Made by a program: the position numbers and the translations under genes
Origin: Methanosaeta sp. PtaB.Bin018
Lineage (GTDB): Archaea; Halobacteriota; Methanosarcinia; Methanotrichales; Methanotrichaceae
Reading direction: 5' to 3'
DNA: 37,751 nucleotides
NCBI GenBank assembly: GCA_002067755.1
Contig: MVQH01000081.1
Location: forward strand, 1 to 37,751
The notes under the pieces: generated by a model
Seen by the model: the letters and a program-made list of their open reading frames with translations, nothing else
Database searches by the model: none
Told to the model about the DNA's origin: nothing
Shown: positions 14,395-17,802 of the stretch, piece after piece
Numbering within the stretch: position 1 is the first letter of the stretch
How the letters are laid out: each line of letters starts with the position of its first letter

Positions 14395-14493
14395 AACCCA
14401 AGGTCATGAGGCCGAAGATAGTTAAACTTGCTGGCCAAGCGGCGCTAGGTCTTCTGGGCTAAGGTGCGCGAAGCATTCGATGGGCATCCGATA

Positions 14494-14505
14494 GTAATTA
14501 ATATT
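14494..14505 (+). promoter_or_regulatory. TATA-like element before the microprotein gene
   Basis: The AT-rich run TAATTAATATTA is the only such stretch in the gap between the divergent AAA gene and the microprotein. It lies about 50 bases before ATG 14554, which would give a leader of roughly 25 bases containing the AGGAGGT ribosome site. Confidence 0.4.
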
Positions 14506-14553
14506 ACCTCCTCCAAGCAGTAACCAAATACATGCAGTAGGAGGTTATTATTC

Positions 14554-14649
14554 ATGGCAGGTGGAAATGGGCTGGCAATTGGTATGATGGTTATCGGTTT
14601 TATAATCTTGTTCTTGGTGCCACTGGCTTTCTTGACAAGCCTGTTCTGA
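14554..14649 (+). CDS. 31-residue hydrophobic membrane microprotein
   Basis: Small gene with a near-perfect ribosome site, AGGAGGT at 14539-14545, eight bases before ATG. It encodes 31 residues: MAGGNGLAIG, then one continuous hydrophobic helix (MMVIGFIILFLVPLAFL), then TSLF and TGA. A TATA-like element lies upstream, and a 7-bp hairpin followed by a T-rich run begins at the stop codon, so the unit looks complete and independent. I do not recognise the family. A single-span regulator or accessory subunit of a membrane complex is a reasonable idea but is inference only. The strong ribosome site argues against chance. Confidence 0.66.
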   Translation: MAGGNGLAIGMMVIGFIILFLVPLAFLTSLF

Positions 14650-14690
14650 AGGCTTGATACATAGAGGGGATCTAAGCCTTTATTATTTTA
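14649..14690 (+). terminator. Hairpin terminator of the microprotein gene
   Basis: AAGGCTT at 14649-14655 pairs with AAGCCTT at 14674-14680, followed by TATTATTTTAATA. The left arm starts at the last base of the TGA stop codon. Confidence 0.55.
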
Positions 14691-14703
14691 ATATCTTTTG
14701 GCC

Positions 14704-14764
14704 CCCACAACCTCTTTTGCCTCCCACAACCTCTGCCCACACATAAGTCAATAAATCTTTATAG
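14704..14764 (+). promoter_or_regulatory. Promoter region with 12-bp direct repeats before the secreted-protein operon
   Basis: CTTTATAG at 14757-14764 is a good archaeal TATA box, about 75 bases before the TTG start at 14837. Upstream, the 12-mer CCCACAACCTCT occurs exactly at 14704-14715 and again at 14723-14734, a 19-base period, with CTCTGCCCAC after it. Spaced identical repeats just upstream of a TATA box suit a regulator site, but no regulator is known. Confidence 0.45.
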
Positions 14765-14836
14765 ATGGGCTCCAAACATAATTAAAGAAAATACGAAGTT
14801 GTTGCTCAGGGCGTAAGCTGACAACGGTGAAGCAGG

Positions 14837-15505
14837 TTGAGGCGAATTGTGACTGTTATGTTGTTGTCCTTGGTTTTATATCCTTCAGCTTGCCAGGCCA
14901 GCGAAGAGAACGATCTATGGCTGCTTTTATCAAGTTACGAGGATATCAGCATCACAGTGAATGATCTGGCTTTTTTTCTTGCGACGCATGGATACAATGC
15001 CAAGCCCGAAGGATCCTATGTAGTAGTAACCTTGAACGATGGCAAAGCTGTATATCTCACGCCCAATGGAGCTTCTCCAAGGCTTGCAGACCTGTGGATG
15101 ACCCCTCCCACCAGCCAGGCAGGACCAGTCCAGGTAATACCTAGCGATGCCATAAAGATCAATGCTACGTACAAAAAGACTGACGACTCCGAATTCATAA
15201 ATACCATCAGCAGGTATGTTATCTTTCCAGTGGCCCCTCTGGGAATGTGCTATGACGGTTCACAAAAACTGCAGAGCACTTACAAAAGTTTCGGCTACAG
15301 CGTGGTATATCTGTACGACCCCAGTGGATTTAACTCGCAAGGGCATATCTGGGTTGTGGTGGAGGACAAGGACAATCCAGGCACCTGGCAGGCTGTGGAT
15401 AGCTACTACGGGATTGTGAATGGCCCTGAGTACTATACTGCGCCCTACAGCTTCGCTGACTTCAAGTATCTCGACTCGATCAACCCCAAATGGAGGATGG
15501 CATGA
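14837..15505 (+). CDS. Secreted protein with transglutaminase-like Cys-His-Asp triad
   Basis: Product of 222 residues with a signal peptide (MRRIVTVMLLSLVLYPSACQA). The C-terminal half resembles a transglutaminase-like/papain-type fold. A Cys in PLGMCYDGSQKLQ (C138) starts a helix, a His in SQGHIWVVVED (H170) opens a strand, and an Asp in WQAVDSYYG (D188) opens the next. Order and spacing match the classical catalytic triad; the family call is inference. TTG 14837 is favoured by GGTGA six bases upstream and by basic residues in the signal peptide; GTG 14849 with GAGG upstream is an alternative. The stop overlaps the pentapeptide gene start, so the two are coupled. It may modify or cut surface proteins. 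Confidence 0.72.
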   Translation: MRRIVTVMLLSLVLYPSACQASEENDLWLLLSSYEDISITVNDLAFFLATHGYNAKPEGSYVVVTLNDGKAVYLTPNGASPRLADLWMTPPTSQAGPVQVIPSDAIKINATYKKTDDSEFINTISRYVIFPVAPLGMCYDGSQKLQSTYKSFGYSVVYLYDPSGFNSQGHIWVVVEDKDNPGTWQAVDSYYGIVNGPEYYTAPYSFADFKYLDSINPKWRMA

Positions 15506-16668
15506 TGAGACCTGAATTGTTGATGCAGCTTGTGCTGTGCCCACTGATTGCGGCAAGCTGCATAGCCGCGGCTGAGCAGTCGGATCTCGGCAGCATGATA
15601 GCTGATCGAGCCGATCTTGGCAGTATGAACATCTCGCACATGAATCTATGTGGTCGACATTTGAACCAATCGAATTTGACGGACGCCGACCTGAGCGGCT
15701 CTGATTTGAGCGGTGCTTTCCTGCAGTCGGCATGGCTGACAAATTCTCATCTGATAGGCGCGGTGATGGTCAAGGCCGATCTGACGGGGGCTGTTCTCAA
15801 AGGGGCGGATCTCCGCAGGGCCGATCTTACAGAGGCCACACTTGTAAGGTCTCAGATGTCAAATATAAATATGAATAGCGCTACTCTGAGGAATGCTGAC
15901 CTTACAGAAGCAGATCTCTCCGGTTCAGATCTCTCAGATGCTGACCTTTCTGATGCCAGGCTTTTCAGGACGGATCTGAGCGGTGCAAGAATGAAGGGCA
16001 TATATCTGGTCAGCGCAAACCTAATTGGAGCCCATTTGAGCTGGACGGATATGAGCATGGGCTATCTGTCAAGGGGACAGTTCTCCAGGGCTGAACTTTA
16101 CAATACCAACCTAAGTGGTTCGGATCTAAAGGATGCTGATTTTACAAGAGCGTATCTCATGGGCGCCGATCTTACTGGCGCTAACCTCGATTCGGCCAGC
16201 CTTGCTTATGCAGATTTGACCGGGGCAAAGCTCGTGGGTGCTAGCCTGAATTCGGCAAAGCTGCCTTACGCCGATCTGACCCGTGCCAACCTCACTGGGG
16301 CTGATTTGACTGATGCCGATTTGAGCTACGTCAGGCTTCAAGGAGCCGTCTTGAGCAAGGTCCGGCTTGGCCATGTCGATTTGCGTGATATCGATCTGAG
16401 AGGCGTTGATCTGAGCGGAGCATCTCTTAAAAACGCCAATTTGGCTTTGGTCTTCTTGACCAACGCCAACATGAGGGGCGTTGACCTGCGCGATGCCACT
16501 TTCGATCGCGTGGAGATGACGGGGGTCGATCTCTCTGATGCGAACCTGGTGGGAATAGAATACGACCAGTTTACACTCTATTCGCTATCTAATGCAAAGA
16601 TGGATGGTGCCATTATGTCCGAGGACCTCAAAGCTGACTTGGATGCCCTGTCAGGGAGATTGAAATGA
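15502..16668 (+). CDS. Exported pentapeptide-repeat protein
   Basis: About 388 residues: a signal peptide (MMRPELLMQLVLCPLIAASCIAAA) followed by a nearly unbroken run of pentapeptide repeats of A(D/N)LxG type, for example ADLSGSDLSG, ADLTGAVLKG and ADLTGANLDS. Such repeats fold into a right-handed square beta-helix rod. Most known family members are cytoplasmic or periplasmic binding scaffolds. ATG 15502 overlaps the stop of the triad protein (ATGA) and has GGAGG six bases upstream; an in-frame ATG at 15490 lies before that site. The gene ends with an ATGA overlap into a beta-helix pseudogene, so three secreted proteins were originally coupled. It is probably a surface or pseudomurein-free envelope component. 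Confidence 0.88.
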   Translation: MMRPELLMQLVLCPLIAASCIAAAEQSDLGSMIADRADLGSMNISHMNLCGRHLNQSNLTDADLSGSDLSGAFLQSAWLTNSHLIGAVMVKADLTGAVLKGADLRRADLTEATLVRSQMSNINMNSATLRNADLTEADLSGSDLSDADLSDARLFRTDLSGARMKGIYLVSANLIGAHLSWTDMSMGYLSRGQFSRAELYNTNLSGSDLKDADFTRAYLMGADLTGANLDSASLAYADLTGAKLVGASLNSAKLPYADLTRANLTGADLTDADLSYVRLQGAVLSKVRLGHVDLRDIDLRGVDLSGASLKNANLALVFLTNANMRGVDLRDATFDRVEMTGVDLSDANLVGIEYDQFTLYSLSNAKMDGAIMSEDLKADLDALSGRLK

Positions 16669-16942
16669 GTGCTTGTTCTCCCTTTCGGCTAATCTGCATG
16701 CCTTGTGCTCGCCATCCTTCTTTTATCGGCAGCTCAGGCCGCGACCATCACAGTCAAGCCAGGTGAGAGCATTCAAAAAGCCATCGATGGAGCCTCACAA
16801 GGAGATATCATCTAGATTTGGGCTGGGACCTACAACGAGAGCATCAATGTCACCAAGAGCCTCGTCTTGCGAGCTGCGCTCGGAGCCGAAAAGCCGCTCC
16901 TGAACTCCGGCGGTCACAGGGATGTTGTCAGTCTCCTGGCAA
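16665..16942 (+). pseudogene. Broken secreted beta-helix (NosD/PbH1-like) gene
   Basis: The start ATG overlaps the pentapeptide-gene stop. The first codons give MSACSPFRLICMP; after loss of about one base near 16702 the signal peptide continues as LVLAILLLSAAQA. Then come TITVKPGESIQKAIDGASQG and DII, an in-frame TAG at 16813-16815, and IWAGTYNESINVTKSLVLRA up to VVSLLAS. This is the N-terminal pattern of parallel beta-helix repeat proteins (GESIQKAID, GDII, GTYNESI). Homology stops at about 16942, where the IS right end begins. Three lesions are therefore visible: a frameshift, a nonsense codon and truncation. No C-terminal remainder is found beyond the transposon remnants. Confidence 0.75.
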
Positions 16943-17001
16943 GTCAACTACCACTGCCTGATGGCCGTGGCTTGCAGCTAGTGGTAAGCCCGCTACGATT
17001 G
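16943..17001 (-). mobile_element. Right end of an IS200/IS605-type (TnpB) element
   Basis: A 59-base stretch downstream of the TnpB stop contains an imperfect hairpin (ACTGCC-TGAT-GGCCGT, 16953-16968) and a nearby GGCTT/AAGCC pairing. It borders the broken beta-helix gene at GTCAAC. It matches a second copy at 25974-26032 in 51 of 59 positions. In this family the right end plus the tnpB 3' part is also the source of the omegaRNA guide scaffold, so this segment may be a decayed one. Confidence 0.6.
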
Positions 17002-17292
17002 TTGACAGGCAGCCTGGCAACGATCAGATCTACTGAAGGCAGCGATATCTCTGGAGGCATTCAAATCAGCATCGATCTGGAAGCCGCAACTCTTGCACTT
17101 GAAGGTTCTACCGTTGCGGTTCTCCTTCTTTTGGAAACCGCATCTTGAACAGGTACGAGAAGTATATCTTGGATCTACAGCAACTACCTTCTCTTTGATA
17201 GCTGTCGCTTTGTATTCCACGATGCTTCTTAGTTCCGCGAAGCTCCATTTACCAAGCTTCTTATTTTTTGGTCGTGAACCTCCTATAGGTTG
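16993..17292 (-). pseudogene. tnpB: C-terminal fragment of TnpB
   Basis: Reading from 17292 down to the TAG at 16993, the frame gives PIGGSRPKNKKLGKWSFAEL, then YKATAIKEKVVAVDPRYTS. The zinc ribbon CSRCGFQKKENRNG...FKCKSCGF follows, with two CxxC pairs. The last RuvC segment is DADLNASRDIA. These are the final roughly 95 residues of an RNA-guided TnpB nuclease, normally about 370-400 residues. The parts carrying the first two RuvC acidic residues are absent; stops lie just upstream at 17293-17295 and other transposase debris begins there. A GTG at 17220 could start a 75-residue remnant, but no function is expected. Confidence 0.8.
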
Positions 17293-17339
17293 CTATTAAT
17301 ACATCATGTGTGTGCATGTAATGCATGGGGAGTAGCAAT

Positions 17340-17490
17340 TGGGAAAGAGAGGTCCAAAATCACGATTCCTGGATGTAGCTTGTCCAAACGAGCAGCTTGT
17401 CCAAACGAGCAATGTACTCAATTTGGAATTGCTGGGAAGGGAAACGTTACCTGCTACGGCATTTATGAGAATAGTTCCGGCAAGGTAAGA
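17340..17490 (+). pseudogene. N-terminal remnant of a zinc-ribbon transposase, broken by a tandem duplication
   Basis: If one copy of a 17-bp tandem repeat is removed, a continuous frame reads GKRGPKSRFLDVACPNEQCT, then QFGIAGKGNVTCYGIYENSS and GKVRK. The pattern PxxRFLDVxCxNxxCxxxGxxGxGN is the N-terminus of IS1-like/ISNCY-type archaeal transposases that begin with a CxxxxC zinc ribbon. The duplication shifts the frame, and homology ends at GKVRK, where an IS256-type remnant begins. Only about 50 residues survive. The family name is tentative; the transposase nature is well supported by the motif. Confidence 0.55.
17377..17410 (+). repeat. 17-bp perfect tandem duplication
   Basis: AGCTTGTCCAAACGAGC occurs at 17377-17393 and again, adjoining and identical, at 17394-17410. 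It lies in a transposase remnant and shifts its frame. Perfect identity beside otherwise decayed sequence suggests a recent slippage event or an uncorrected assembly artefact. Confidence 0.9.
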
Positions 17491-17730
17491 AAAAGTTGGA
17501 TGAGGACGCCGAGAAGTCTCTGAAGAGACCAATTGAAGAGCCGGCGCCCTCTCTGTTCATAGATGCTAGCTACTTCAAAGTCAGGACAGATGGCAGATAC
17601 GTAAAACATGGCGCTGCTGATCGCCGCCGGCATCCATGAAGACTGCCATCGCGAGATTCTGGGTGCTGCGGTTGCCCATAGCGAAGATGGATCGTGCTGG
17701 GAAGACTTCCATCAAATCGTAGTCTTTTAA
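17487..17730 (+). pseudogene. IS256 (mutator)-family transposase fragment with frameshift
   Basis: One frame gives KLDEDAEKSLKRPIEEPAPS, then LFIDASYFKVRTDGRYV. After a shift near 17605 the next frame gives MALLIAAGIHEDCHREILGA, then AVAHSEDGSCWEDFHQ, ending at TAA 17728. This matches the core of IS256 transposases (LDAxYxKVRxxGRVV, then AxGxxxxGxREVLG, SExxxxW). The first catalytic Asp lies in FIDASY. The N-terminus, the rest of the DDE domain and both inverted repeats are missing. It abuts the zinc-ribbon remnant directly, so this is a mosaic of at least two elements. Confidence 0.72.
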
Positions 17731-17802
17731 TATGTAGGATACGCATAGCACATAATTGAGCAATAAATGAGCAGCGCGCGATGGTAAAGGGACGTGTGTT
17801 CA

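Follow-up and report, generated by a model that had tools for sequence, protein, structure and literature searches.

Members of the Methanotrichaceae are major acetate-using methane makers and grow enclosed in protein tubes of exceptional resistance. How the envelope of these archaea is processed, and how viruses pass through it, are open questions on which a locus of Methanosaeta sp. PtaB.Bin018 may bear. The window, which is the whole stretch of DNA analyzed here (37,751 nucleotides of contig MVQH01000081.1), contains a three-gene set at positions 14837–16942. The genes code for a secreted enzyme-like protein of 222 residues, a secreted pentapeptide-repeat protein of 388 residues, and a NosD-type β-helix protein whose gene is broken. 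The export signals of these proteins were assigned by inspection of the sequences. The locus raises the question of whether the enzyme and the rod-like proteins form a module that acts on the envelope, and of what the enzyme would do there.

Gene order in the window and in related genomes

The first gene (ORF1, 14837..15505, + strand) begins with a TTG codon and encodes a transglutaminase-like protein that consists of a signal peptide, a new N-terminal domain, and a C-H-D catalytic domain, an assignment based on homologs, profile comparison, a structural model, and dN/dS. The signal peptide (residues ~1–22, 14837..14902, + strand) was recognized by inspection and from the hydrophobic N terminus of the homologs. 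The second gene (ORF2, 15502..16668, + strand) codes for the pentapeptide-repeat protein, a predicted square β-helix rod. The third (ORF3, 16665..16942, + strand) is a 5′ remnant of ~90 of 688 codons, as revealed by comparison with a sister genome (G023). The first-pass annotation described the genes as joined by ATGA overlaps, and this is the case: the start codon of ORF2 (ATG 15502) sits within the stop of ORF1, and that of ORF3 (ATG 16665) within the stop of ORF2. A purine-rich, ribosome-binding-like stretch lies ahead of each start. The ATGA coupling of ORF1 and ORF2 is not universal among relatives, where gaps of up to 318 bp occur; the junction between the pentapeptide and β-helix genes is often the identical 4-base overlap. 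When compared with G023, the enzyme and the rod are under purifying selection (dN/dS of 0.12 and 0.14, respectively), and the β-helix remnant gives a value of 0.20 from few sites. Upstream of the enzyme gene is a hydrophobic ORF of 31 residues (14555–14650, + strand; MAGGNGLAIGMMVIGFIILFLVPLAFLTSLF), which is found with 80–100% identity at the equivalent position in many Methanothrix loci.

Full-length relatives of ORF1 are present in 28 of the 37 Methanotrichaceae genomes that are at least 85% complete, and one of these 28 has only the form without the cysteine and histidine. No relative was found in any other family among a phylum sample of 393 genomes; one weak match (G379) was not member-like on inspection and was dropped. 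A scan of an 84,980-species collection gave 69 loci, nearly all titled Methanothrix or Methanotrichaceae, the exceptions being one UBP9 and a few broader archaeal names.

Among the full-length loci, 41 extend far enough downstream to show the next gene, and 33 of these have a pentapeptide gene immediately after the enzyme on the same strand. Such pairs of enzyme and pentapeptide genes are found in eight genera of the Methanotrichaceae and in none outside; enzyme loci without an adjacent pentapeptide gene include L095, L107, L117, and L120. Unrelated genes that are merely adjacent, through chance or an assembly artifact, would be another explanation for the locus. The genome of the window has only ~4 pentapeptide loci, however, and together with the conserved order this indicates that the adjacency is not due to chance, although the chance calculation ignores phylogenetic dependence. 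The conserved downstream gene refutes this explanation, whose probability we regard as negligible. A same-strand β-helix gene follows at 16 loci besides the window, and directly after the enzyme gene in two of these, so that the ordered trio expected in other Methanothrix genomes does occur there with an intact third gene. Of the two-scaffold module proposed at first, the enzyme-pentapeptide pair stands as the core, whereas the β-helix protein is accessory, its gene having been lost or broken repeatedly. At many other loci it is absent, convergent, or broken, and in G130 (L203) a DDE transposase lies ahead of a shortened β-helix gene.

Several further features accompany these loci. Tandem pairs of pentapeptide genes are found at many of them. 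In a subgroup, two small exported proteins (240 and ~195 residues; L082:14559-15962 and equivalents) follow the β-helix gene, and a Pfam scan of one of the two gave no family. In another branch of the enzyme-pentapeptide loci (L112–L115), genes for BMP-family and Peripla_BP_6 binding proteins are neighbors. In G004 the enzyme gene is preceded, at a distance of a few kb, by repeats resembling a CRISPR array, with recurrent FNSLFIGIGSAI/FQFPFHRDRLCN in translation (L056:1200-4000).

The loss of the third gene can be followed at the nucleotide level. ORF3 is a remnant of a NosD/parallel β-helix gene with a frameshift near its start and in-frame stops, whereas G023 has an intact gene of 688 residues. 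DNA identity with G023 (89.2%) spans 14470 to 16942 and ends exactly there. The break is abutted by a 77-bp repeat (16943..17019), likely the end of an IS605-type element, and two further contigs of the genome carry this repeat at their ends. This repeat overlaps a C-terminal fragment of tnpB (16993..17220, − strand; Cas12f1-like TNB domain, PF07282, E = 7.4e-21), and next comes a weakly matching piece of a Mutator-type transposase (PF00872, below cut-off), which makes 16943–17740 a graveyard of insertion-sequence remnants. The window retains no later part of the β-helix gene, and elsewhere in the genome the matches are distant paralogs. The end of identity at 16942, the adjoining repeat and tnpB fragment, and the absence of any later gene part indicate that loss of the third gene came with an IS605-type element situated at the break, in addition to the frameshift and stops. 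The gene had been called broken from the window alone, and the sister genome confirms this.

The predicted catalytic domain and its viral copy

The catalytic domain comprises residues ~128–219 of the enzyme (15218..15493, + strand), as delimited by the model, Foldseek, hhalign, and a viral copy. The three residues that the first-pass annotation had named as a triad in a secreted protein are found at the claimed positions of ORF1, all encoded on the + strand: Cys-138, the putative nucleophile (15248..15250), His-170 (15344..15346), and Asp-188 (15398..15400). Among 36 homologs they are conserved in 33, 34, and 36, respectively. The other cysteine of ORF1, Cys-19, falls in the signal peptide, which leaves Cys-138 as the sole cysteine of the mature protein, and exactly one cysteine is present in the mature part of 29 of the 36 homologs. 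Both sequences without His-170 (L064/L065, loci L111/L110) are also without Cys-138, and their pentapeptide neighbor is absent.

The AlphaFold model of the enzyme has a mean pLDDT of 80.8. Cys-138 starts a helix (residues 138–151), His-170 starts a strand (residues 170–176), and Asp-188 ends another (residues 183–188), so that the order of secondary-structure elements in the model is that of clan CA, and at this level there is no sign of residues that lie far apart. The top Foldseek matches in the Protein Data Bank are mostly papain-fold enzymes (best E = 1.4e-3, probability 0.99), with low whole-chain TM-scores and no E-value below 1e-3. They include the MOA/PSL1a protease lectins, BpJOS, USPs, GtgE, Tae4, and PCAT1.

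A comparison of residues 98–222 with Transglut_core sequences using hhalign gave a probability of 89.7 and a score of 43.0, with the cysteine, histidine, and aspartate all aligned. As controls, 60 column shuffles reached a maximum of 22.6 and the reversed profile 8.5, and the N-terminal part of the enzyme gave a probability of 1.3. Comparison with a second Methanotrichaceae family yielded a probability of 93.5 and a score of 47.7, against a shuffle maximum of 21.9. Narrow subfamily profiles scored weakly, so the superfamily claim is carried by the pooled profile. The second family (L189:1064-2521), found through a weak match in G035, is a separate one with a C-H-E transglutaminase-like domain; in a simple alignment of 21 rows, each of its triad positions is conserved in 12. 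The enzyme scored above cut-off for no family in Pfam or NCBIfam. The gathering cut-off of Transglut_core (PF01841) was reached by none of the 36 members, that of Peptidase_C93/LapG (BTLCP) was not reached by the enzyme, and profile searches of Protein Data Bank sequences gave nothing credible. On the profile evidence, we accept the catalytic domain as a member of the transglutaminase-like/papain (clan CA) superfamily, in agreement with the transglutaminase-like nature noted at the outset, but of no named Pfam family, because none reached its cut-off.

The same domain was found in a viral contig of 61.5 kb from IMG/VR (IMGVR_UViG_3300002171_000009). This contig encodes a protein of 103 residues (L259:4950-5261; FPVAPLGMCYDG ... 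GQGHVW ... IIDSYWG) in which a signal peptide is followed by the catalytic domain and nothing else; its identity to the enzyme over the triad region is 42% (E = 4e-12). The gene lies opposite tail genes, a tape-measure protein among them. An exported β-helix (tail-spike-like) protein is encoded on the same contig. A host look-up with two tail-region proteins gave no match in the relatives; the contig has no nucleotide match to the collected loci, and no related viral contig was found. In sheathed hosts, a possible means of viral exit that has been suggested is the action of virus-encoded proteases (PMC11576556).

These results bear on the chemistry of the enzyme. If it were a secreted peptidase similar to LapG or PeiW, the C-H-D domain would cut a surface protein or an isopeptide and so release or remodel the rods or the tubular sheath. 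The exported or wall-active precedents with the same triad do cut: LapG (Cys-135) cleaves the adhesin LapA (PMC3032545), and the C-H-D domain of PeiW and PeiP, two enzymes of methanogen viruses, cuts pseudomurein (PMC2989375). The structural neighbors are mostly proteases and amidases, and a lone catalytic domain with a signal peptide in a tailed virus fits the breaching of a wall. Nevertheless, hydrolases and transferases of this superfamily are inseparable by sequence alone. Cleavage is one chemistry within the explanation that we prefer, and it is held only tentatively, at well below an even chance.

The pentapeptide rod and the N-terminal domain

The ORF2 protein was claimed to be an exported square β-helix, and its tandem A(D/N)LXX repeats place it in the pentapeptide-repeat family well enough to sustain this (PF00805, E = 3.9e-84; 276 bits against a cut-off of 20.2). 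Besides the repeats, the orthologs share a non-repeat signature at residues ~178–226 (16021..16167, + strand), with a pattern like GAHxSWxDxxxxxLxxGQFSRAELYxTxLSxxDLxxxDFTRAYLM; residue numbers of the rod count from ATG 15490. Of the 67 distinct pentapeptide-like proteins encoded at these loci, 55 contain the core of this signature, in several settings; all 30 pentapeptide sequences examined from Methanosarcina, a few of which are repeats of one locus, lack it.

Three residues of the rod orthologs, Gln-60 (96%), Gln-197 (93%), and Lys-257 (89%), are kept as a cross-linking transglutaminase might demand. Such an enzyme would join glutamine and lysine (or equivalent) residues among the rods, the sheath, and the β-helix proteins. 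True transglutaminases belong to the superfamily, and the Methanothrix sheath is reported to be remarkably resistant (PMC11576556). However, the exported precedents LapG and PeiW/PeiP are hydrolases, and the signature that contains Gln-197 is also kept in rods whose neighbor is the N-terminal domain only, with no enzyme, and may serve binding or structure. Cross-linking, which the first-pass annotation raised as one possibility and which is the other chemistry within our preferred explanation, is unlikely in our estimate, and cleavage is ranked above it because the exported precedents cut. The signature persists in rods that have no enzyme neighbor; for this reason we interpret it not as the target of the enzyme but as a putative site of binding, which the N-terminal domain may occupy.

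The N-terminal domain, which the first-pass annotation did not recognize, is previously undescribed and is the better clue to the partner of the enzyme. It covers residues 23–92 (14903..15112, + strand), a separate domain modeled with a pLDDT of 90.6 as two helices followed by four strands. In ~30 small secreted proteins of the Methanotrichaceae it is present without the rest of the enzyme. Pfam and NCBIfam scans of the domain gave no family, and Foldseek gave only weak matches, the best being TA0095 (E = 0.4), on which basis no fold is assigned to it. A pentapeptide gene adjoins the stand-alone domain at 12 of 29 loci, mostly on the same strand and within 160 bp. At these sites the pentapeptide proteins are larger for the most part; two were scanned, and each has an ABC substrate-binding domain (PF04392). 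A small winged-helix gene (PF14947) comes after another five of the stand-alone copies. Genes for BMP proteins also lie near stand-alone loci.

Thus, the domain pairs with pentapeptide proteins in separate settings, with and without the enzyme, and docking on these proteins would be the simplest interpretation. Because the four enzyme loci listed above and 17 of the 29 stand-alone domains are not beside a pentapeptide gene, docking on a rod may not be its only role. The substrate-binding domains suggest an alternative in which an extracellular assembly for ligand sensing or recognition is built from the pentapeptide rods together with the N-terminal domain, with the enzyme domain playing a minor part. 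It would account for PF04392 in the large pentapeptide proteins and for the BMP and Peripla_BP_6 binding proteins that neighbor several loci, but it sits poorly with a triad that is conserved across the family and with the linkage of enzyme to rod at most loci, and we consider it quite unlikely.

Proposed role and comparison with known systems

The explanation that we prefer, to which we give about an even chance, is that the genes form an envelope-modification module specific to the Methanotrichaceae lineage, in which a thiol enzyme, bound to rods that are exported with it, trims or links surface polypeptides. The ORF1 product would be a secreted thiol enzyme using the Cys-138–His-170–Asp-188 triad, and its N-terminal domain would dock it onto the co-exported pentapeptide rod, through or near the signature patch. 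The enzyme would then form an acyl-enzyme with a surface polypeptide, either the rod itself or a neighbor held by it. Resolution of this intermediate by cleavage or by transfer to an amine would mature or anchor the rod layer, and the NosD-type β-helix protein would be an accessory partner or a substrate. The data establish the genes, their export signals by inspection, the superfamily of the catalytic domain, the conserved linkage, purifying selection, and the loss of the β-helix gene here, whereas catalysis, docking, and a role of the rod as substrate or platform are inferred.

A broader and unlikely reading is that of an undescribed envelope-maturation system, in which exported rods share a docking site for the ~70-residue domain. 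One branch would deliver a linking or trimming thiol enzyme and another would couple the rods to ligand-binding domains, and a tailed virus would have acquired the catalytic domain on its own and would use it to breach the wall of sheathed hosts. The gene set supplies a specific exported enzyme, likely partners, and a viral copy with which processing and viral passage of the envelope can be approached, and it would assign a role to a family of exported archaeal rods built of pentapeptide repeats.

No description of this gene system was found in the literature searched, and it appears to be undescribed, although it combines a known catalytic superfamily with known types of repeat. ORF2 is clearly a pentapeptide-repeat protein (PF00805) by its repeats, but unlike plain members it is exported and carries the non-repeat signature absent from the 30 Methanosarcina examples. 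Intact homologs of ORF3 match the NosD/parallel β-helix families above cut-off (PF05048, E = 3e-83; PF13229, E = 7.5e-58), but differ from true NosD copper-site maturation proteins in that the homolog at L039 scores 205 bits against the TIGR04247 cut-off of 300. The enzyme shares with Transglut_core (PF01841; Pfam clan Peptidase_CA) the order and spacing of a cysteine at a helix start, a histidine on a strand, and an aspartate on the next strand, the motifs GxC, HxW, and WxxxD, and the profile match with the triad aligned. In contrast to Transglut_core, it stays below the Pfam and NCBIfam cut-offs, is fused to an undescribed N-terminal domain, and has been found only in the Methanotrichaceae and one virus. 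The Methanotrichaceae are not known to have pseudomurein. The pseudomurein endoisopeptidases PeiW and PeiP (PF12386) likewise combine a C-H-D domain with an N-terminal substrate-binding part in methanogen viruses (PMC2989375), and a viral form of the enzyme domain exists as well, but the binding domain of the enzyme is a different one and it has no Pfam match to them. LapG and the BTLCP family (Peptidase_C93, PF06035) are, like the enzyme, C-H-D thiol enzymes that work outside the cytoplasm, and the target of LapG is a large surface adhesin (PMC3032545); the enzyme differs in having no Pfam match to that family and in its linked partner, which is a pentapeptide rod.
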